Assembly (NCBI GenBank): GCA_020161755.1
Contig: JAIUOS010000001.1
Coordinates: forward strand, 210,633-274,632
From: Actinomycetota bacterium
Lineage (GTDB): Bacteria > Actinomycetota > Actinomycetes > Propionibacteriales > Propionibacteriaceae
Direction of reading: 5' to 3'
Length of the DNA stretch: 64,000 nucleotides
The notes beneath the pieces are model-generated. The model was given only the letters and a program-made list of their open reading frames with translations, was not told where the DNA came from and did no database searches. The position numbers and the translations under genes were made by a program. Positions 2,030 through 34,702 of the stretch are shown piece after piece. Each line of letters begins with the position of its first letter. The first letter of the stretch is position 1.

Positions 2030-4482
2030 CCTCCGCCGGCCCGCCCGGGGCGCCGGCGTCCCACCCGATCCACGAAGGCTGGACGGTCCGGGCCGTCCGC
2101 GGTCCGGTGCCGTCCGGGGTTGCCGGACGGGAGGTGCCCGCGACCGTCCCCGGCTGCGTGCACACCGACCTGCTGGACGCCGGGCTGATCGCCGACCCGT
2201 TCGTGGACGACAACGAGGCCCTCACCCGCTGGGTCGGGCTCACCGACTGGGAGTACCGCACCGCCTTCGCGTGGGTGCCGGACGGGCACGAGCGCCAGCA
2301 CCTGGTCTTCGACGGCCTCGACACGGTCGGCGAGGTCCGGCTGAACGGCGACCTGCTGGGCGAGGTCGACAACATGCACCGGACGTGGCGCTTCGACGTC
2401 ACCGGACGGCTCCGCGCCGGCGCCAACGAGCTGGTCGTCGCGTTCCGCAGCCCGCTCGACCACGCCGCGCGCCGCAGCCTCGAGCTCGGCATGCTGCCCA
2501 ACCCGTACCCGTCCGCGCCGTTCCACGCGATCCGCAAGATGGTGGCCAGCTTCGGCTGGGACTGGGGCCTCAGCACCGCCACCAGCGGCCTCTGGCGCCC
2601 GGTCACGCTCGAGAGCTGGTCGACCGCACGGCTCGACCGCGTCCTGGTCGAGGCGACACCGACGCCCGACGGCGGCCGGGTCCGCGTCCGCGTCCGGCTC
2701 GACCGCACCGACGACCGTCCGCTCACCGTCGGCCTGGTCGTGGCCGGTGCCGGCGCGCAGGCGAGCACCAGCGGCACCGACGTCGAGCTGGACGTCGAGG
2801 TCGCCGGCGTGCGCCGTTGGTGGCCGCGCGGCTACGGCGAACAGCCGCTGTACGACGCGTCCGTGACCCTCGCCGACGGCGAGCACCTCCTGGGCTCCGT
2901 CCAGCGTCGTGTCGGGTTCCGCAGCGTCGCCTGGGACACCACGCCGGACGCGCACGGGACGCCGTTCGCGCTCCGGGTGAACGACCAGCCGGTGTGGGTG
3001 AAGGGCGTCAACTGGATCCCCGACGACGCCTTCCTCACCCGCGTCGACCGCGCGCGGTACCGCGAACGCCTGCTCCAGGCCGTCGACGCCAACGTGAACC
3101 TCGTGCGGGTGTGGGGCGGCGGCATCTTCGAGTCCGACGACTTCTACGAGTTGTGCGACGAGCTCGGCCTGCTCACCTGGCAGGACTTCCTGATGGCGTG
3201 CTCGGCCTACTCCGAGGACGCGGCGCTGGTCGCGAGCATCGAGGCCGAGTCGCGCGACAACCTCGCCCGGATCGGGCACCACGCCAGCCTCGTCCTGCTC
3301 AACGGCAGCAACGAGAACGTCCAGGGCTACCAGGACTGGGGCTGGCAGCGGATGCTGGACGGCCGGCCGTGGGGCGCCCGCTACTACGACACCCTGTTCC
3401 CCGCGCTGGTCGCCGAGCTCACGCCGACGATCCCCTACATCCCGTCCAGCCCGTTCAGCCCCGGCGGAGAGCCGGCGAACGCCGAGGTGCACGGCGCGAC
3501 GCACATCTGGGACCTGTGGAACGAGCGCGACTGGCTGGACTTCCGTGCCTACCGGCCGCGGTTCGTCACCGAGTTCGGCTGGCAGGGCCCGCCGGCCTGG
3601 ACGACGCTGACCGACGCCGTCCACGGGGAACTCGCCCCCGAGTCGGTGCTGATGGAGGCCCACCAGAAGGCGCGCTGGGGCAACCACAAGCTGCTCGCCG
3701 GCCTGCTCCCGCACTTCCCCGTCCCCCGCACCGTCGACGACTGGCACTGGGCGATGCAACTCAACCAGGCGCTGGCCGTGCTGTGCGCGTTCGGCTGGTT
3801 CCGCTCGCTGGCGCCCCACAACAGCGGCGCGGTGATCTGGCAGCTCAACGACTGCTGGCCGGTGATCTCCTGGGCCACGATCGACGGGGCCGGACGGCCG
3901 AAGCCGGCCTGGTACGCGATGCGGGACGCCTTCGCCGACCGGGTGGTCAGGGTGCAGCCCGACGGCGACGACCTCCAGGTCGTCGCCGGCAACGACACCG
4001 CGCAGCCGTGGACGGGGACCGTCCGGCTGCGGCGGCTCACCTACGACGGGACGGTCCGCGCCGAGCTGTTCCTCGCGGCCACGGTGCCGGCCCGGGGCAC
4101 GCTGCGGCTCCGCGTCGCCTCGAACCTCTCGGTCCCGGCTGATCCGGCGGACGAAGTGCTCGTCGTCGAGTTCGACGAGGCGCAGGACCACTGGTTCTTC
4201 GCCGAGCCCCGCGACAGTGCCCTGCGGCTGCCGCGGTGGGACGTCGCGGTCGAGCCAGACGGCGACGACCAGCTCGTCCGCGTCACCCCGGACGTGCTCG
4301 TTCGCGACGCCTTCGCGATGGTCGACCGGCTCGCGCCCGCCGCGCGCGTCGACACCGGCCTGTTCACCCTGTTGCCCGGGGAGACCGCCGTCCTGAGGGT
4401 CGCCGGCGCCGGGGAGTTCGACGCCGCGACGATCGCTCGCCCCGACGTCCTGCGCTGCGCCAACCAGCTGGTGGCCCGATGA
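2026..4482 (+). CDS. Beta-mannosidase, glycoside hydrolase family 2
   Basis: An 818-residue cytoplasmic exo-beta-mannosidase that would release mannose from the non-reducing end of beta-1,4-manno-oligosaccharides. The GH2 order is visible: an N-terminal jelly-roll domain (to about residue 190, with FDGLDTVGEVRLNG), an immunoglobulin-like domain, a TIM barrel (about 300-640) and C-terminal beta domains. Likely acid/base is E430 in NGSNEN, and likely nucleophile is E516 in VTEFGWQ. Length is typical for the family and there is no signal peptide, so it acts on imported sugar. The GTG at 2026 overlaps the permease stop and is preferred to longer in-frame starts inside the permease. It appears intact. 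Confidence 0.93.
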   Translation: MTSAGPPGAPASHPIHEGWTVRAVRGPVPSGVAGREVPATVPGCVHTDLLDAGLIADPFVDDNEALTRWVGLTDWEYRTAFAWVPDGHERQHLVFDGLDTVGEVRLNGDLLGEVDNMHRTWRFDVTGRLRAGANELVVAFRSPLDHAARRSLELGMLPNPYPSAPFHAIRKMVASFGWDWGLSTATSGLWRPVTLESWSTARLDRVLVEATPTPDGGRVRVRVRLDRTDDRPLTVGLVVAGAGAQASTSGTDVELDVEVAGVRRWWPRGYGEQPLYDASVTLADGEHLLGSVQRRVGFRSVAWDTTPDAHGTPFALRVNDQPVWVKGVNWIPDDAFLTRVDRARYRERLLQAVDANVNLVRVWGGGIFESDDFYELCDELGLLTWQDFLMACSAYSEDAALVASIEAESRDNLARIGHHASLVLLNGSNENVQGYQDWGWQRMLDGRPWGARYYDTLFPALVAELTPTIPYIPSSPFSPGGEPANAEVHGATHIWDLWNERDWLDFRAYRPRFVTEFGWQGPPAWTTLTDAVHGELAPESVLMEAHQKARWGNHKLLAGLLPHFPVPRTVDDWHWAMQLNQALAVLCAFGWFRSLAPHNSGAVIWQLNDCWPVISWATIDGAGRPKPAWYAMRDAFADRVVRVQPDGDDLQVVAGNDTAQPWTGTVRLRRLTYDGTVRAELFLAATVPARGTLRLRVASNLSVPADPADEVLVVEFDEAQDHWFFAEPRDSALRLPRWDVAVEPDGDDQLVRVTPDVLVRDAFAMVDRLAPAARVDTGLFTLLPGETAVLRVAGAGEFDAATIARPDVLRCANQLVAR

Positions 4483-4493
4483 AAGGAACGACT

Positions 4494-5681
4494 GTGCCCG
4501 AGCACGAACCCGGCCTGCTGCGGGTGGAGAACCCGGTGCGGGACTACGCGTGGGGGTCGCCGACGGCCATCCCCGAGGCGCTGGGCGCCACTCCTACCGG
4601 GGTGCCGCAGGCCGAGCTGTGGCTGGGCGCGCACCCGGGGGACCCGTCCGTCCTCACCGACGGGACGCGGCTGGACGACCACCTGGCCGGCCAGGGGCAG
4701 CGCCCGCTGCCGTTCCTGATGAAGCTGCTGGCCGCCGCGTCGCCGCTGTCGCTGCAGGTGCACCCCGCCACGGCGCAGGCGCAGGCCGGCTTCGCCCGCG
4801 ACGAGGCCGCCGGGCTCGACCTGGCCGACCCCCTGCGCAGCTACAAGGACCCGTTCCACAAGCCCGAGATCATCGTCGCGTTGAGCCCGTTCGCCGCCCT
4901 GTGCGGCTTCCGGACGCCGGCCGCCGCGCGCGACGACCTGGTTGCGCTCCTTCCCGAACAGCTGGCCACCGGCATCGGCGGCGACCTCGCCGCCGCGCTG
5001 AGCCTGCCCGACGAAGCGGACGCGTTGCGCGCCGCCTTCGAGCTGGTGCTGTCCGGCCGTCCGGAGGTGCGGGCGCTCGCGGCCGCCGCCGTCGCCGCCA
5101 CCGCCGACGACCACTCCACGCTGGCCCGCACGATCCGCTGGGTCGGCGAGCACTACGGAGACGACCCCGGCGTACTCGGCGCCGCGCTGCTCAACCGCGT
5201 CGACCTGGCGCCACGCGAGGCGCTGTACCTGGGGGCCGGCAACATCCACGCCTACCTGTCCGGGTTCGGCATCGAGGCCATGGCGCCGTCGGACAACGTA
5301 CTCCGCGGCGGGCTCACCCCGAAGCGTGTCGACGTCGCCGGCCTGCTGGAGATCGTCCGCTTCGAAGCCCTCGTCCCGACCCGGGTCGAGCCGGTCACCA
5401 GCGAGCAGGGCGGCGTCCGCCTCACCAGCTACTGGCCGCCCGCCGAGGAGTTCTCGGTGCACATCGTCGACGCGGACGCCGGCCCGCGCACCCTGGCCGA
5501 GCTGACCGGCCCGGCCATGCTCATCGTGGCCTCCGGCCGCCTCGAGCTGGGCTCGGGCGCCGACACCCTCGTCGTCGAGCGCGGCCAGAGCCTGTTCCAG
5601 GCGGCTGGCGCGCCGCTCACCGTGCGCGCCCTCGAACCGGGCAGCACCGCCTACCTCACCACCACTGGAGCACTGACATGA
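4494..5681 (+). CDS. manA: Mannose-6-phosphate isomerase, class I
   Basis: A 395-residue zinc-dependent isomerase converting mannose-6-phosphate to fructose-6-phosphate, the entry of mannose carbon into glycolysis. Visible family motifs are QVHP near the N-terminal third, YKDPFHKPE, and the C-terminal signature GNIHAYLSGFGIEAMAPSDN followed by VLRGGLTPKRVDV. GTG 4494 is chosen because GAAAGGA lies 6 nt upstream. ATG 4479, overlapping the mannosidase stop, is an alternative that adds five residues. In this operon it finishes the path from mannose-1-phosphate and would also serve free mannose after phosphorylation. Confidence 0.93.
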   Translation: MPEHEPGLLRVENPVRDYAWGSPTAIPEALGATPTGVPQAELWLGAHPGDPSVLTDGTRLDDHLAGQGQRPLPFLMKLLAAASPLSLQVHPATAQAQAGFARDEAAGLDLADPLRSYKDPFHKPEIIVALSPFAALCGFRTPAAARDDLVALLPEQLATGIGGDLAAALSLPDEADALRAAFELVLSGRPEVRALAAAAVAATADDHSTLARTIRWVGEHYGDDPGVLGAALLNRVDLAPREALYLGAGNIHAYLSGFGIEAMAPSDNVLRGGLTPKRVDVAGLLEIVRFEALVPTRVEPVTSEQGGVRLTSYWPPAEEFSVHIVDADAGPRTLAELTGPAMLIVASGRLELGSGADTLVVERGQSLFQAAGAPLTVRALEPGSTAYLTTTGALT

Positions 5682-6697
5682 GCCCTGAGATCCTGACCGA
5701 ACCCCTGCCGAACCTGCCCTGGGAGGAGCGCCCCGAGGGCTCCACCGATGTGCTGTGGCGCTTCACCGGCAACCCGGTGATCGGCTGGAACCCCAGCCCG
5801 AGCACCGCCCGCATCTACAACAGCGCGGTGGTGCCGTTCGGCGACGGGTTCGCCGGCGTGTTCCGTGCCGACCACCGCACCGGCACGTCCGCCCTGCACG
5901 TCGGGTTCAGCCCCGACGGCGTCCACTGGGACGTCAACGACGAGCCGATCCGCTGGGTCGACGAGACCGGCGCCGACTACCAGCCGCGCTACGCCTACGA
6001 CCCGCGGGTGGCGAAGATCGACGGCCGCTACTACGTGTGCTGGTGCGTCGACTTCGGCGGCGCCGCGCTCGGCCTGGGCTACACCGACGACTTCCAGAAC
6101 TTCGTCCGGCTGGAGAACCCGGTCACGCCGTTCAACCGCAACGGCGTGCTGTTCCCGCGCACCATCGGCGGCACCTACCGGCTGCTCACCCGTCCCAGCG
6201 ACTCCGGGCACACCCCGTTCGGCGACATCTTCGTCTCCGAGAGCCCCGACCTCACCTTCTGGGGACGCCACCGCCGGGTGATGACCCCTGACAAGGAGTA
6301 CTGGTGGCAGTCGGTGAAGATCGGCGCCGGCCCGATCCCGATCGAGACGACCGATGGCTGGCTGCTCTTCTACCACGGGGTCTCCGGGACGGCGAACGGC
6401 CTGGTGTACTCGATCGGCGCCGCCCTGCTCGACCGGGACGAACCGTCGAAGGTGCTGCACCGCACCCGCAGCTACCTGCTCACGCCCGAGGTCGACTACG
6501 AGACCGCCGGCTTCGTGCCGAACGTGTGCTTCCCGTGCGCCGCGCTGTGCGACGGCGCGACCGGACGGATCGCCCTCTACTACGGCGCCGCCGACACCTT
6601 CTCCGCGCTCGCCTTCGGCCGGGTCGAGGAGATCGTCGCGCAGATCAAGGCCGACTCGCGGGTGCTTCCCGCCGACGCCGAGTCGTTCCGTGGCTGA
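5678..6697 (+). CDS. GH130 family beta-mannoside phosphorylase
   Basis: A 339-residue five-bladed beta-propeller enzyme of GH130, a family that phosphorolyses beta-mannosides to mannose-1-phosphate. Typical stretches are YNSAVVPFGDGFAGVFRADH near the N-terminus, YDPRVAKIDG with the likely catalytic acid D108, and a late FPCAALCD...YYGAADT segment. It is clearly different from the second GH130 in the operon and looks closer to the group of manno-oligosaccharide phosphorylases than to mannosylglucose phosphorylases. The exact substrate cannot be read from the sequence. It starts in a 4-nt overlap with manA and ends 8 nt inside the next gene. No signal peptide is present. Confidence 0.87.
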   Translation: MSPEILTEPLPNLPWEERPEGSTDVLWRFTGNPVIGWNPSPSTARIYNSAVVPFGDGFAGVFRADHRTGTSALHVGFSPDGVHWDVNDEPIRWVDETGADYQPRYAYDPRVAKIDGRYYVCWCVDFGGAALGLGYTDDFQNFVRLENPVTPFNRNGVLFPRTIGGTYRLLTRPSDSGHTPFGDIFVSESPDLTFWGRHRRVMTPDKEYWWQSVKIGAGPIPIETTDGWLLFYHGVSGTANGLVYSIGAALLDRDEPSKVLHRTRSYLLTPEVDYETAGFVPNVCFPCAALCDGATGRIALYYGAADTFSALAFGRVEEIVAQIKADSRVLPADAESFRG

Positions 6698-28293: not shown

Positions 28294-29271
28294 TCAGTAG
28301 CCGATCGCGGCGAGCGTCGAACGGATCGCGGCCGCCGACTTGTTCAGCAGGCCGATCTCGTGGGCGTCCATCGGGAACTCGAACGTGCGCCGGATGCCGG
28401 ACGGGCCGACCAGGCTCGGCACCGACAGCGCCACCCCGGACACCCCGCGGTAGTCGGTGAGCACGCTCGACAGCGGCCAGATCTTGCGCTGGTCGCCCAG
28501 GATCGCCTCCACCAGCCGCGCCCCGGCCAGGCCGATCGCGTAGTTGGTGGCGCCCTTGCCCTCGATGATCGAGTACGCGGCGTGCACGGTGTCGTGCGCG
28601 ATCTGCGCCAGCACCTCCTCGGTGAACACGCGGACGCCACCGGCGTCCGTCCAGTCCCGGATCGGGATCTGTGCGATCGAGGCCGACGACCAGATCGGGA
28701 ACTCGGTGTCCCCGTGCTCGCCGAACATGGCCGCGTGGACGTTCGACAGCGCCACGCCCGCGCGCTGCGCGATCGCCCAGCGCAGCCGGGACGTGTCCAG
28801 CAGCGTGCCGGTCGACAGGACGCGGTTCACCGGCAGCCCGCTGACCTGGTGGGCGACCACGGTGAGCACGTCGCACGGGTTGGTGACCAGCACGAGGACG
28901 GCGTTCGGCGCCTGCTCGAGCAGGTCGGGCACGAGCTTGGTCATGATGCCGGCGTTCACCCCGGCCAGGTCGAGCCGGGTCTGGCCGGGCTTCTGGCGGG
29001 CCCCGGCCGTGATGATGATCACCGAGGAGTCCTTGACGACCGAGATGTCGGAGCCGCCGGTGACCACCGACGTCGGCGTGAACTGGGTGCCGTGCGAGAG
29101 GTCGTGGACCTCGGCCTCAACCTTCTTGGTGTCGATGTCGTACAGCGCGATCTGGCGCGCCGACCCGCGGATCAGCGAGGCATAGGCGATCGAGGTACCG
29201 ACGGAGCCGGCCCCCACGACGGTGAGCTTGGAGTTGGCAAGGTTCTGGCTTTCGACGGACACCGGGGTCAT
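28294..29271 (-). CDS. ldh: L-lactate dehydrogenase
   Basis: A 325-residue NAD-dependent dehydrogenase interconverting pyruvate and lactate. The Rossmann motif is [14 protein letters not shown] (residues 18-31). [13 protein letters not shown] has glutamine before the substrate loop, which marks lactate rather than malate dehydrogenase. [21 protein letters not shown] and [11 protein letters not shown] (catalytic His) follow. It lies 9 nt after the TetR stop and 4 nt before the aminotransferase. In propionic acid bacteria such an enzyme links lactate use or production to central metabolism. Confidence 0.95.
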
Positions 29272-29280
29272 GCCCCCAGC

Positions 29281-29922
29281 CTATCGAGGCTCCTCGCGGT
29301 CGGTCACAAGAGACTTCAGCAGCTCGGTCAGCTGGCGCCGGCGCGACTCGTCGTCGGGCTCGAGCCCCTGCAGCAGCGCGTTGATGCCGCTGTGCAGGTA
29401 CACCGCGTGCAGCAGGTCGAGCGCCTCCTCCATCGGCAGCTGGAGTCGCAGCCCGACCCGGTCTACGACACCGCCCAGCAGGTCGCCGATCTGCTCGCCC
29501 ATCCGCTCGTTGAGCGCGAGCAGGGGCTGGCGCAGCGCGGGGGCACGGACGGCGTACAGCCGCAACTCCATGCCGGCGACGAGGTCCTCGCTGCTGCGCG
29601 GCTGCGTGGCCAGGAACACGCTGAGCGCCAATTCGATCACCTCGTCGATCGTGCGCGCGCACAGCACGTCCTCACCGATGCTGGCGACGGCCTTCTCGGT
29701 GGCTTCCAGTTCGCGGAGGGCGTGCCGGTTCAGCACGGCCAGGCACAGGTCGTCCTTGTCGGCGAAGTTGGAGTAGAACGCGCCGCGGGTGAACTCGGCC
29801 CGCTCGCAGATCTCCTCGACGCTCGCCCCGAGGACGCCCTTCGCCGCGAACAGTGCGACGGCCGCGTCCATCAGTCGCTCCCGGGTCTGGCTGCGGCGAG
29901 CGGTCACTGTTGTCTCACTCAT
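29281..29922 (-). CDS. TetR-family repressor divergent to the MMPL transporter
   Basis: A 213-residue TetR regulator. The helix-turn-helix is in GVLGASVEEICERAEFTRGA followed by FYSNFADKDDL; the C-terminal domain is helical. RBS AGGAG lies 7 nt before ATG 29922. Paired palindromes at 29941-29954 and 29958-29971 in the divergent promoter region are the likely operators. It would repress both itself (with the downstream ldh run) and the transporter genes to the right. The inducing ligand is unknown but is probably a lipophilic compound exported by that system. Confidence 0.9.
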   Translation of the reverse strand: MSETTVTARRSQTRERLMDAAVALFAAKGVLGASVEEICERAEFTRGAFYSNFADKDDLCLAVLNRHALRELEATEKAVASIGEDVLCARTIDEVIELALSVFLATQPRSSEDLVAGMELRLYAVRAPALRQPLLALNERMGEQIGDLLGGVVDRVGLRLQLPMEEALDLLHAVYLHSGINALLQGLEPDDESRRRQLTELLKSLVTDREEPR

Positions 29923-29936
29923 CGCATCTCCTGACT

Positions 29937-29971
29937 TTCAATACAGTTCTGTATTGAATACACTACCGTAT
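29937..29971. promoter_or_regulatory. Twin TetR operators between tetR and the MMPL gene
   Basis: TTCAATACAG-TT-CTGTATTGAA at 29937-29958 is a perfect 10-bp inverted repeat. A weaker copy ATACACTACCGTAT lies at 29958-29971, with the same half-site spacing as ATACAGTTCTGTAT (29941-29954). The centres are 17 bp apart, suiting two TetR dimers. Its AT richness stands out against the surroundings. Confidence 0.8.
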
Positions 29972-30029
29972 CGAGCCTTGTTCCACCGACACTTCGGGGG
30001 AGCGCCGAAGCCGGGGAAGGGTCTTTCCG

Positions 30030-32726
30030 TTGTCATCATTCCTGTATCGCCTGGGACGCGCCAGCTATCGGCTGCGCGGCCGCGTCGTGATCGCGTGGAC
30101 CCTCCTGCTCATCGTCCTCGGCGGCCTCGCGGTCACCATCGGCGGCCAGTACAGCGACGTGTTCGAGGTGCCGGGCGCGAGCTCGACCAAGGCCCTCAAC
30201 AAGCTCAAGGTCACCTTCCCCGAAGCCGCGGACGCGACCGCGACCGTCCTGATCACCGCGCCCGCCGGGTCGAAGCTCGAGGACGCCGACGTGAAGAAGG
30301 CCGTCAAGGCGTGGGAGAAGGAGGTCGAGAAGCTGTCGTTCGTGCGGGGGATCATCGACCCCTACAACGAGAACATCGACGGCTCGATCAGCAAGGACGG
30401 CGCCAGCGGCATCGCGAACGTCCGGGTCGAGGGCACCGCGTCCACGGTGACCGACGCCCAGCGCGAGGAACTCACCGCCGCCGCCAAGACCCTGGAGACC
30501 ACGCTGCCCGGCGCGAAGGTGCTGGTCGGCGGCGAGGTGTTCAGCGTCCACGTGCCGCACATCACCGTGATCGAGGCCCTCGGCCTGGGCGTGGCGATCA
30601 TCGTGCTGGTGATCACGCTCGGCTCGGTGGTGGCGTCGATGATGCCGGTCGGCACGGCCGTCGCCGGCGTCGGCATCGGAGTGCTCGGCGTGCAGATCGC
30701 CGCCGGTGTCATCTCGGTGAGCTCCACCACGTTGATGCTCGCGGTCATGCTCGGCCTGGCGGTCGGCATCGACTACGCGCTGTTCATCATCTCCCGCCAC
30801 CGTGACCAGCTCGCCGCCGGCATGGAGGTGGAGGAGTCCGCCGCGCGCGCGGTCGGCACCGCCGGATCGGCGGTCGTGTTCGCCGGCCTCACCGTGATCA
30901 TCGCGCTGGTCGGGCTGAGCATCGCCGGGCTGCCGTTCCTCACCGTGATGGGCGTCTTCGGCGCGCTCACCGTGGCGTTCGAGGTGGCGCTCGCGCTCAC
31001 CCTGCTGCCCGCGTTCATGGGGTTCGCCGGGGAGCGGCTGCGTCCGAAGCCCGCCAAGGAGCGCAAGGGACGGACGCGGGCCTCGCGCACCAGCGGCGGC
31101 CCGGCCGGCTGGTGGGTGCGCATGGTCACCGCCTGGCCGGTCGTGACGATCGTGCTGGTGCTGGTCGGCATGGGTGCGCTCGCGTACCCGGCCAAGGACC
31201 TCCAGATGGCGCTGCCCACGTCCGGCCACTCGCTGCCCGGCACCCAGGACCGCGAGACGTTCGACGCGATCACCCAGAAGTTCGGGGTCGGACGCAACGG
31301 CCCGCTGATCCTGATCGTCGACATCGTTGAGCTGGACGACCCGATCGAGGCGCTCGACGGCCTGAAGGCCGACATCGAGGCCATGCCGGGTGTGGAGATG
31401 ATCGCCGCGTCCACGCCGAACGCCAACGTCGACACCGGCATGGTGCAGATCATCCCGACCACCGGCCCGGACGACCCGGCCACCGCCAACCTCGTCGAGC
31501 GGCTGCGCGAGCGGCACGACGAGTGGAAGAAGGCCTACGACGTCGAGACGGCGGTCACCGGCTTCACCGCGATCCAGATCGACGTCACGTCCCAGCTCGA
31601 GGCCGCGCTGCTGCCGTTCGGCATCTTCGTGGTCGGCCTGTCGCTGGTGCTCCTGACCATGGTGTTCCGCTCGATCTGGGTGCCGCTCAAGGCCGCGCTC
31701 GGCTACCTGCTGAGCGTCGCGGCGGCGTTCGGCGCCACCACGCTGGTGTTCAACCAGGGCTGGTTCTCCTCCCTGATCAACCTGCCCGAGCCCGGACCGG
31801 TGATCAGCTTCCTGCCGATCATCCTGATGGGCATCCTGTTCGGCCTGGCCATGGACTACGAGGTGTTCCTCGTCTCCCGGATGCGCGAGGAGTACGTCCA
31901 CGGCAACACCGAACGCTCGGTCGAGGACGGCTTCGTGCACTCCGCGCGGGTGGTCGTGGCCGCCGGCCTGATCATGTTCTCGGTGTTCGCGTTCTTCGTG
32001 CCGCACGGCGAGGGCGCGATCAAGCCGATCGCGTTCGGCCTGGCCGTCGGCGTGGCGCTGGACGCGTTCGTCGTGCGCATGACGCTGGTGCCGGCGGTGA
32101 TGAAGCTGCTCGGACGCCACGCCTGGTGGCTGCCGAAGTGGTTGGACGCGCGGCTGCCGTCCCTGGACATCGAGGGCGAGTCGTTGACCCGCCAGGTGCA
32201 CCTGGCGTCGTGGCCGTCGCCGGACGACACGTCCGCGATCGTAGGCGAGGGGCTGGTCGCCCGGGTCGGTGAGCGGACGCTGTTCAGCGACCTCGCGCTG
32301 GGCGTGCAGCCCGGCGGGGTGCTGGTCGTCGAGGGCGAGCACGCCCAGCGGCAGGCGCTGCTGCTGGCACTGTCCGGACGGGTGAAGCTCACCGACGGCA
32401 AGCTCAAGGTGCTCGGCCTGGTGCTGCCGGAGGAATCGCCGGTGCTCCGGCGCCGCGCGCTGCTGCTCGGCCCGTCCGTCACCCACTTCGGGCGGGTACT
32501 GAAGAACGTCTCCGGCGGGATCGTCTGCGTCGACAACGCCGACGAGCTCTCCGACACCCAGGACCGGTCCCTGCGCCGCGCGCTGGCCGCGTCCGCCACG
32601 TCCGGGGAACCGACCACGTGGGTGCTGGGCGTGATGCCCGGCTCCGATCTCGAGGCGCAGCTGCCGGTGCCGTTCACGGTGCTGAAGCTGGCGTCCCACC
32701 TCGCCCTGGAAGGAGCGAACCGATGA
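30030..32726 (+). CDS. MMPL/RND transporter with C-terminal degenerate ABC-ATPase-like domain
   Basis: An 898-residue protein. Residues 1-720 form an MMPL exporter: two halves, each with a first helix, an extracytoplasmic domain and a bundle of helices. The proton-path motifs are GLAVGIDYALFIISRHRDQL in the first half and GLAMDYEVFLVSRMREEY in the second. Residues about 738-898 read like an ABC ATPase (ARVGERTLFSDLALGVQPGG), but the Walker A position is EGEHAQRQALLLALSGR with no GKS/T, and a Walker B-like GGIVCVDNADELSD remains. No signature LSGGQ is seen. TTG 30030 has GGGGAAGGG upstream. It overlaps the YhgE/Pip gene by 4 nt. Confidence 0.88.
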   Translation: MSSFLYRLGRASYRLRGRVVIAWTLLLIVLGGLAVTIGGQYSDVFEVPGASSTKALNKLKVTFPEAADATATVLITAPAGSKLEDADVKKAVKAWEKEVEKLSFVRGIIDPYNENIDGSISKDGASGIANVRVEGTASTVTDAQREELTAAAKTLETTLPGAKVLVGGEVFSVHVPHITVIEALGLGVAIIVLVITLGSVVASMMPVGTAVAGVGIGVLGVQIAAGVISVSSTTLMLAVMLGLAVGIDYALFIISRHRDQLAAGMEVEESAARAVGTAGSAVVFAGLTVIIALVGLSIAGLPFLTVMGVFGALTVAFEVALALTLLPAFMGFAGERLRPKPAKERKGRTRASRTSGGPAGWWVRMVTAWPVVTIVLVLVGMGALAYPAKDLQMALPTSGHSLPGTQDRETFDAITQKFGVGRNGPLILIVDIVELDDPIEALDGLKADIEAMPGVEMIAASTPNANVDTGMVQIIPTTGPDDPATANLVERLRERHDEWKKAYDVETAVTGFTAIQIDVTSQLEAALLPFGIFVVGLSLVLLTMVFRSIWVPLKAALGYLLSVAAAFGATTLVFNQGWFSSLINLPEPGPVISFLPIILMGILFGLAMDYEVFLVSRMREEYVHGNTERSVEDGFVHSARVVVAAGLIMFSVFAFFVPHGEGAIKPIAFGLAVGVALDAFVVRMTLVPAVMKLLGRHAWWLPKWLDARLPSLDIEGESLTRQVHLASWPSPDDTSAIVGEGLVARVGERTLFSDLALGVQPGGVLVVEGEHAQRQALLLALSGRVKLTDGKLKVLGLVLPEESPVLRRRALLLGPSVTHFGRVLKNVSGGIVCVDNADELSDTQDRSLRRALAASATSGEPTTWVLGVMPGSDLEAQLPVPFTVLKLASHLALEGANR

Positions 32727-34702
32727 ACGTCGAACAGCTGAACTCGCGGCCCGCGCGCTGGTACACCCTGCTGGGCCTGGTGCTGGTGCCGATCCTGGTG
32801 GCCGGCGGCTTCCTGCTGGCCGGGGTCAACTCGACCAGCCGGCTGCACACCGTCCAGGCCGCGGTGGTGAGCCTCGACGACCCGGTCACGATCGACGGGC
32901 AGTACACCCCGCTCGGCCGGCAACTCACGTCCAACCTGGTCGACTCCCAGCGCACCGAGAACCTCACCTGGGTGCTCGACAGCGAGGAGAACGCGCGCGC
33001 CGGGCTGGCCACCGGCACGTACGCGGCGATGGTGGTCATCCCGAAGAACTTCTCGGCGGCGGCCACGTCGTTCTCCAAGGACGCGGACGAGGCCGAGCAG
33101 GCCACGATCGAGGTGTCGACCTCGCCGGTCGCCGGGGTGGCGGACGCGACCCTCGGACGGCTGGTCGCCAGCGAGGCGGCGGCGACGCTGAACCAGACGC
33201 TGACCGAGAGCTACCTCACCCAGATCTACATCGGCTTCAACGACCTCGGCGACCAGTTCGTGACGCTGGCGGACGGGTCGTCGCAGCTGGCCGACGGGGC
33301 CGAGAAACTCTCCGACGGCATCGGGGACGCGGCCGACGGCGCGGGTGAGCTGTACACCGGCTCCAGCAAGCTGGCGAACGGGCTGCAGACCTACGCCGCC
33401 GGGGTCGGCACACTGGTCGACGAGAGCCAGTCGCAGCAGAAAGCTCTGGCGAAGAACGTGAAAAAGCTGGCCGACGGGGCCAAGGGCATCGACGCCGGGC
33501 TGGGCACCTACCAGTCGAGCCTGGAGAAGAACGCCAGGGCGGCCGCGGACGGGGCCGACCAGATCACCGGGCTGCTGACCGCGCTCGGCCAGGGCCAGGT
33601 CGCCCCGGAGGTGGTCATCGGCGCGATCAAGCAGGCCTGCGACATCGACACCGACGCAGCCGGGCTGGCCGTCAACGGGCCGGTGTGCGTGGCGTCGCTG
33701 ACCGCGTCCTCGCGCGCGCTGGCCGGTGCGGCGGCCGGGCTGGACCAGAAGGACCCCGACACCGGGCAGAGCCTGAAGTCGGGCACGTCCGCGCTCGCCG
33801 ACGGGGTCGGCCAGCTGTCGTCCGCCCTCACCAAAGCCGCGAACGACGAGAAGACCGCGGCCCAGCTCAAGCAGCTCAAGTCCGGCGGCACGAAGCTGGC
33901 CGGCGGGGCCGCGGAACTGGCGTCCGGCATCGACCAGTTCGAGGCCGGGCTGATCGACGCCCACACCGGCAGCACGAAGCTGGCCGACGGGATCCGGAAG
34001 ATGGCCGACGGCATCGCGGAGGGCAAGGACAAGCTGCCGAGCTACACCAAGTCCGACCGGGAGAACCTGTCGACCGTGGTGGCGTCGCCGATCGACACGT
34101 CCGCGTTGAGCGGGCTGGCGAACCCGAACATCGGCTGGATCAGCCTGGTGCTGGTGCTCGCCCTGTGGCTCGGTGCGCTGGCGACCTACGCGATGGTGAA
34201 GGCGATCGGTGCCGGGTTGCTGCACTCGTCCGAGCCGACGCTGGTGCTGATCGGACGCGCGCTGCTGCCCGGCATCGCGGTGGTCGGGACGCAGGCGATC
34301 CTGGTGGCTGCGCTGAGCCGGTTCGGGCTCGACCTGGACGGGCGGGAGTGGCTGGCGATCACCGGCGTGCTCGTGCTGGCCGGCATCACGTTCGTGGTGG
34401 TGAACCACGCGCTGGTGGCGTGGTGGGGCGGCTTCGGACGGCTGGTCTCGGTGCTGCTGGCGGTGCTGACTGCTGCGTCCGCGCTGACGGGGGCGGCGCC
34501 CGCGGTGTTCGCGGCCCTGCGTCCGTTCTCGCCGTTGACCCCTGCGCTGGACGCGGTCCGCGCGATCCTGACCGAGTCGAGCGGGGCGGTCACGTCCACG
34601 CTCACCCTGGTCGGCTGGCTGCTGGTGGCGCTGACCGCGAGCGCGGTGGCCGTCGCCCGGAAGCGCAGCACCACCCTCTCGGCGGTGGTGGCCGGCGCCT
34701 GA
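32723..34702 (+). CDS. YhgE/Pip-domain membrane protein
   Basis: A 659-residue protein with one N-terminal membrane helix (TLLGLVLVPILVAGGFLLAG), a long extracytoplasmic region and five or so C-terminal helices resembling ABC-2 permeases. The extracytoplasmic part (about residues 190-450) is filled with heptad-like LADG-x-x-LADGA-type repeats, typical of YhgE/phage-infection-protein families, and probably forms a long coiled coil. It starts in a 4-nt overlap with the MMPL gene. The pair, led by TetR, suggests an envelope-spanning export complex for lipids or amphiphiles. Family A hairpins follow the stop. Confidence 0.88.
   Translation: MNVEQLNSRPARWYTLLGLVLVPILVAGGFLLAGVNSTSRLHTVQAAVVSLDDPVTIDGQYTPLGRQLTSNLVDSQRTENLTWVLDSEENARAGLATGTYAAMVVIPKNFSAAATSFSKDADEAEQATIEVSTSPVAGVADATLGRLVASEAAATLNQTLTESYLTQIYIGFNDLGDQFVTLADGSSQLADGAEKLSDGIGDAADGAGELYTGSSKLANGLQTYAAGVGTLVDESQSQQKALAKNVKKLADGAKGIDAGLGTYQSSLEKNARAAADGADQITGLLTALGQGQVAPEVVIGAIKQACDIDTDAAGLAVNGPVCVASLTASSRALAGAAAGLDQKDPDTGQSLKSGTSALADGVGQLSSALTKAANDEKTAAQLKQLKSGGTKLAGGAAELASGIDQFEAGLIDAHTGSTKLADGIRKMADGIAEGKDKLPSYTKSDRENLSTVVASPIDTSALSGLANPNIGWISLVLVLALWLGALATYAMVKAIGAGLLHSSEPTLVLIGRALLPGIAVVGTQAILVAALSRFGLDLDGREWLAITGVLVLAGITFVVVNHALVAWWGGFGRLVSVLLAVLTAASALTGAAPAVFAALRPFSPLTPALDAVRAILTESSGAVTSTLTLVGWLLVALTASAVAVARKRSTTLSAVVAGA

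Follow-up and report, generated by a model that had tools for sequence, protein, structure and literature searches.

The locus analyzed here raises the question of why a pump of the proton-driven MMPL family should carry a catalytically dead ABC-type domain as its tail, and why the gene that follows should encode a YhgE/Pip protein. MMPL pumps and ABC transporters are regarded as different classes that draw on different energy sources, and YhgE/Pip proteins are known mostly for their role as phage receptors and for their kinship with EsaA, a protein of type VII secretion. Enterococcal PIP is described as necessary for phage infection, and its YhgE/PIP domain is presented as one of no known function in the available text of its description (PMC4999554).

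The window, which is the whole stretch of 64,000 nucleotides analyzed, lies on contig C1 of a 4.08-Mb assembly. It contains an MMPL-family exporter with an ABC-like tail at positions 30030 to 32726 of the plus strand (898 aa, TTG start), followed on the same strand by a YhgE/Pip gene at 32723 to 34702, whose product is an ABC-2-like membrane protein of 659 aa. The stop of the first frame and the start of the second share four nucleotides, ATGA (32723 to 32726, plus strand); the fusion and the overlapping downstream gene, as given in a preliminary description of this DNA, are thus confirmed in the sequence. The YhgE/Pip protein scored 114.4 bits with the N-terminal model TIGR03061 (cut-off 96.15) and 40.3 bits with PF12698. 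The C-terminal model TIGR03062 stayed below its cut-off (67.9 vs 102.2 bits), with a match that spans positions 2-207 of 208 (E 8.9e-19), and the EsaA N-terminal model matched more weakly, at 56 bits with a cut-off of 122. In the YhgE coiled coil, the best of seven xxxLxxG heptad-repeat stretches (TIGR03057) is encoded at 33302 to 33382 on the plus strand (residues 194-220). Five tail-bearing loci carry taxon names, and these come from Propionicimonas and from Propionibacteriaceae metagenome-assembled genomes, a group to which the host of the window probably belongs.

The MMPL protein passes PF03176 with 285.3 bits over two stretches (gathering cut-off 20.5) and is encoded by the one clear MMPL gene of this genome, in which three other matches score 30 to 36 bits. 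The Asp-Tyr proton-relay motif occurs in both transmembrane halves (GIDYALFI and GLAMDYEVF); among the fused loci, that is, those in which an MMPL protein bears the tail, it was found in the first repeat of 75/78 and in the second repeat of 78/78. In MmpL3, protons are carried by Asp-Tyr pairs, as stated in the available text of PMC10171966. With both motifs kept, the MMPL part of the window protein is predicted to be a proton-driven RND exporter. Its nearest solved relatives are MmpL3 (153 bits) and then MmpL4/5; the score with the model for the MmpL3 trehalose monomycolate exporter, NF052608, was 179.5 bits, far below the cut-off of 1400 bits.

The tail had been described as following an ABC ATPase while lacking both the GKS/T of Walker A and any LSGGQ, and an ABC fold was indeed found for it. 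The ABC-type (pseudo-ATPase) domain covers MMPL residues 733-890 (32226 to 32699, plus strand). Its Walker A position reads GEHAQRQA (32334 to 32357, plus strand), without the lysine and Ser/Thr, and the signature columns are gaps, so both losses hold. The motif columns were read after the tail had been aligned together with 30 canonical ABC domains from this genome. The assignment is approximate in a tail so decayed, in which Arg and Gln stand at the Walker A Lys and Ser/Thr columns, Pro at the Q-loop Gln column and Met at the H-loop His column, and the helical subdomain columns, like those of the signature motif, are gaps. The Walker B-like strand IVCVD (32520 to 32534, plus strand) keeps its Asp, and the next residue is Asn where the catalytic Glu is expected. 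The window tail gave no Pfam match, the gathering score of PF00005 not being reached; this score was reached by tails of relatives (L068, 43.9 bits; L117, 39.3; L151, 49.3; L075, 27.4). Some fused tails, the window's among them, have lost the helical subdomain that lies between Q-loop and Walker B, and others keep it. In ABC transporters, this subdomain helps to shape the groove that takes the coupling helix of the permease. Any docking by the window tail therefore cannot use the usual full interface, and the remaining core would have to serve.

The source of the tail was sought among proteins outside the MMPL family. A search of the order with a tail profile matched 112/245 genomes at E 1e-8. 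It included 19 tail-like matches outside MMPL proteins, all of which were examined; 15 of them adjoin a YhgE/Pip gene, all being ABC-like proteins. Four matches (L084, L085, L202 and L203) were rejected as ordinary ABC genes without YhgE. A second search, seeded with YhgE only and meant to avoid circularity, matched 67/246 genomes of the class at E 1e-8, and the YhgE neighbours were read in 30 loci from among the matching genomes. An atypical ABC gene lay directly upstream in all 30, fused to MMPL in 15 and free-standing in 15.

An HMM of 14 free-standing YhgE-partner proteins was then set against one of the 30 canonical ABCs of this genome, with 31 tails scored. The partner HMM won for 31/31 tails, including the window's (43.3 bits vs 10.7), which together with the YhgE gene next downstream places the window tail in the YhgE-partner family. 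At E 1e-3, the partner HMM did not match the most decayed tails (L077, L078, L081, L082, L133, L134 and L135). In an ABC tree of 57 rows (11 Walker-A-bearing tails, 31 partners and 15 canonical domains), the canonical ABCs were split from partners and tails with support of 100/99, and the 11 tails formed a clade placed among the partners (98/92). The window tail was left out of this tree; its origin is argued from its HMM scores and from its pump falling within the fused group. Scores, tree and gene order show that the tail descends from the ABC-like subunit which other YhgE/Pip genes have beside them in free-standing form.

This agrees with the preliminary idea of a recruited ABC transporter as far as the partner of YhgE/Pip is concerned, but an ordinary, active ABC ATPase is an improbable donor. 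Among 31 free-standing partners from 30 loci, the Q-loop Gln, both signature glycines and the H-loop His were each kept in 0/31 and the catalytic Glu in 1/31; the Walker A Lys was kept in 7/31, with Arg in 24/31, and the Walker B Asp in 31/31. In the 30 canonical domains, by comparison, Walker A Lys, Q-loop Gln, Walker B Asp and catalytic Glu were present in 30 each, the H-loop His in 29 and the signature Ser in 28. The partners read here lack most hydrolysis motifs, and the fused domain therefore probably came from a subunit that was already non-hydrolysing. Since 16/31 partners came from the YhgE-seeded search, a bias towards proteins that resemble dead tails does not by itself explain this degeneracy. 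The YhgE-partner proteins (L166-L184, L186-L201) apparently constitute an unnamed pseudo-ATPase family across Actinomycetes.

The genome of the window (G000) holds two further YhgE/Pip genes. On contig C9 (L186), a free-standing degenerate ABC gene at 4932-5720 (minus strand) lies directly before a YhgE/Pip gene at 2333-4903 (minus strand); its Walker A reads GRAGAGKT and it has no signature, which makes it a ready comparison for the fused form. The third YhgE/Pip gene (L187, 4228-6567, plus strand) lacks an ABC-like neighbour over the 4.2 kb of upstream DNA read; a frame that is TetR-like by its translation (3731-4348) stands directly before it.

The linkage between the fused pump and YhgE was compared with controls. 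YhgE was found downstream or in the same frame in 79 of the 81 fused rows. Once L014 and L152 were counted as one locus and L021 and L147 dropped, L021 because it runs to the end of its stretch and leaves the next gene unreadable, 78 separate fused loci remained in which the downstream DNA could be read. YhgE was present in 78/78 of these loci, its frame overlapping that of the pump or lying no more than 48 nt beyond it. It was found in 0/30 tail-less MMPL loci, which were chosen from among the matches listed with their neighbours not known at the time of choice, and in 0/30 canonical ABC loci of this genome (the best 30 of 101 PF00005 matches, with 1.5-kb flanks). The preliminary description had proposed co-occurrence of the MMPL-plus-ABC-tail protein with YhgE/Pip as a check, and this comparison bears it out. 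An intermediate with separate MMPL, separate partner ABC and YhgE genes was seen in none of 10 loci of free-standing partner and YhgE read over a wide range, all 10 being free of MMPL genes.

Several candidates were set aside. Two loci (L014/L152 and L134) have a single open frame that runs through MMPL, tail and YhgE. This apparent triple fusion was rejected as a natural one because, in either locus, the stretch joining the parts seems to be read in the wrong frame. Six MMPLs with long open frames (L143-L146, L148 and L149) showed no tail, no ABC match and no YhgE. L147, which stands among the 81 fused rows by the length rule, has 615 residues after the pump without an ABC match or a YhgE gene. 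The frame-broken L155 (G058), which has a YhgE gene 748 nt downstream, was still classed among the unfused loci. Some genomes carry two fused MMPL-tail genes (L119/L136 in G412, L121/L127 in G440, L080 in G041); the copies read each have a YhgE of their own, indicating that the system was duplicated and diverged.

The history of the fusion was read from a tree of 90 MMPL cores, computed by a quick search with SH-aLRT only and using 60 of the 81 fused rows. All 60, the window's included, fall on one side of a branch with SH-aLRT 99, so that a single fusion is enough to account for them. In a sample of the phylum, 22/296 genomes matched at E 1e-60, and the full-length fused matches were all within the class; the 3 genomes matched outside the class at this threshold gave tail-less matches only. 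The Walker A pattern GxxxxGK[ST] is intact in 15/81 fused rows and absent in 66/81, so the Walker A loss described for the window tail stands there but does not extend to every fused relative. Within the window's own family, the pattern is absent in 30/30 fused loci (L001-L030) and kept in a further member, L141. The Walker-A-bearing rows in the tree (13) are scattered, and their grouping as a single clade was rejected (p-AU 3.5e-46). Counted by eye, with some forks unresolved, up to seven losses are needed if loss is irreversible; free parsimony gives 4 to 5 changes. Walker A was lost repeatedly among fused tails. The tails of L074, L075 and L141 keep Walker A with the helical subdomain already deleted, and are intermediate stages of decay.

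The tail has nevertheless remained under purifying selection. In 12 pairs, dN/dS ranged from 0 to 0.61 for the tail and from 0.07 to 0.45 for the pump part; within the window's genus (L001-L003), values of 0.20 and 0.23 were obtained. With tail values below 1 in 12/12 pairs and higher than those of the pump in 9/12, the tail is constrained, though generally more loosely than the pump.

A divergent TetR-family regulator (PF00440, 48.1 bits) is encoded at 29281 to 29922 on the minus strand; the gene adjoining it (28294-29271, minus strand) we take from its translation to be an L-lactate dehydrogenase, probably unrelated. A TetR match lies divergently upstream in 48/79 fused loci, 13/79 having less than 700 nt of upstream DNA. 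Between the window's TetR and MMPL genes, a perfect 10-bp inverted repeat, TTCAATACAG-TT-CTGTATTGAA (29937 to 29958), is a probable TetR operator, and a second, imperfect inverted repeat spans 29938-29974. Across this second span, AATAC-N6-GTAT, GTATTGAATAC and a second AATAC-N6-GTAT follow one another with overlap, an arrangement that would suit the binding of two dimers. A related motif, written as either GTATT-AATAC or AATAC-N5-7-GTAT, was found 28-93 nt before the MMPL start in 15/78 fused loci of three families, against 0/30 tail-less MMPL loci, 0/26 other YhgE loci and a shuffle mean of 0.06. MMPL and YhgE probably share one transcript, whose production the divergent TetR protein would repress.

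We lean towards reading the locus as one transport system drawn from two superfamilies, in which a proton-driven pump uses YhgE's dead ABC domain as a cytoplasmic adaptor. The MMPL pump would move an amphiphile, the tail would hold or position YhgE/Pip beside it, and the YhgE coiled coil may reach out on the outer side; a free-standing partner may likewise hold its own YhgE. As the tail is catalytically dead, any energy would come from the proton gradient and not from ATP at the tail. A lead to a lipid-like substrate comes from Saccharopolyspora hirsuta, in which F1721_04135 (YhgE/Pip) and its neighbour F1721_04140 (MMPL), a pair matched by annotation, appear at 3.82-fold and 3.33-fold in a list that, by the adjoining caption in the available text, gives genes raised by cholesterol (PMC9782250). 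Several findings count against an adaptor: YhgE genes without an ABC neighbour exist, as at L187 in this genome; the helical subdomain that would take part in docking is missing; the tail has the higher dN/dS in 9/12 pairs; the most decayed tails escape the partner HMM; and the operator motif was found in a minority of fused loci. A more far-reaching version is put forward only tentatively, namely that an ABC-2-like YhgE module, having lost its ATP power, became tethered through its dead ATPase subunit to MMPL, so that Actinomycetes would possess a single hybrid RND-ABC machine with YhgE driven or gated by the proton gradient.

Other roles for the tail were weighed against the adaptor. It might be a regulatory sensor, whose ancestral domain bound a nucleotide or other ligand without turnover and gated the pump, nucleotide binding having been lost in this genus so that only structure or another ligand is left. 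The intact Walker A of 15/81 fused rows and 7/31 free-standing partners, alongside the almost complete loss of the hydrolysis residues, would suit such a sensor; yet Arg replaces the Walker A Lys in 24/31 partners, and none of L001-L030 keeps the motif, though L141 does, which leaves a sensor rather unlikely. An evolutionary fossil, retained since it folds harmlessly, appears quite improbable: the repeated motif loss implied by the rejected single clade, the deleted helical part and the absence of a sequence-only ABC signal in 7 tails are what a fossil would show, but dN/dS below 1 in every pair, the kept fold and core motifs and 18 invariant columns in 27 tails speak against it.

Pairs of one degenerate and one active ABC subunit are known among ABC transporters. 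The tail could in principle form such a heterodimer, with one degenerate site, with an active ATPase encoded elsewhere, leaving the system ATP-driven, and the genome offers 101 PF00005 matches at E 0.001. The tail, however, lacks the helical subdomain and signature needed to complete a partner's site, and no second ABC gene was seen to separate the pump from YhgE in any fused locus read; we regard this arrangement as highly unlikely. Finally, MMPL and YhgE might merely be co-transcribed, with YhgE acting separately and the tail binding something else, such as a localisation factor; the unrelated C-terminal domain of MmpL3 is reported, in the available text, to guide polar localisation and protein contacts (PMC10171966). 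Little credence is given to this, since the tail comes from YhgE's own partner family and the linkage to YhgE is unbroken in the 78 readable loci. The evidence thus inclines us to retain the adaptor, by which tail and YhgE/Pip would be in physical contact.

In sum, a single protein here joins the MMPL and ABC classes, and among its relatives the domain can be followed through steps of decay, from full length with an intact Walker A down to the bare core. YhgE/Pip thereby gains a testable partner and a candidate energy source. Because the ABC-like partners of actinobacterial YhgE/Pip proteins read here lack most hydrolysis motifs, it is doubtful that such gene pairs are rightly annotated as ATP-driven ABC transporters. 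In the accessible portion of the open-access literature, no description of the MMPL-tail fusion or of the degenerate YhgE-partner family was found.

The system can be set beside several known ones. It shares with the free-standing YhgE-partners of Actinomycetes the same family by HMM and tree, the same place before YhgE and the same motif losses, whereas those partners are separate proteins that keep the helical part and lack the MMPL fusion. YhgE/Pip, EsaA and phage infection proteins are akin to the downstream gene product, in which the TIGR03061 N-terminal domain scores above its cut-off; the enterococcal PIP differs in that the available text of its description mentions no MMPL or ABC partner (PMC4999554). 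MmpL3 and other MMPL-RND exporters (PF03176) have the same pump core, with the Asp-Tyr motifs kept here, but the C-terminal domain of MmpL3 is reported as predicted to be disordered in the available text (PMC10171966), unlike the folded ABC domain of the window tail. ABC exporters with a degenerate site and ABC-2 transporters likewise have an ABC domain encoded beside an ABC-2-like membrane protein (PF12698). The window tail differs from theirs in lacking every tested catalytic motif except the Walker B Asp, and in being covalently part of a pump of the proton-driven type.
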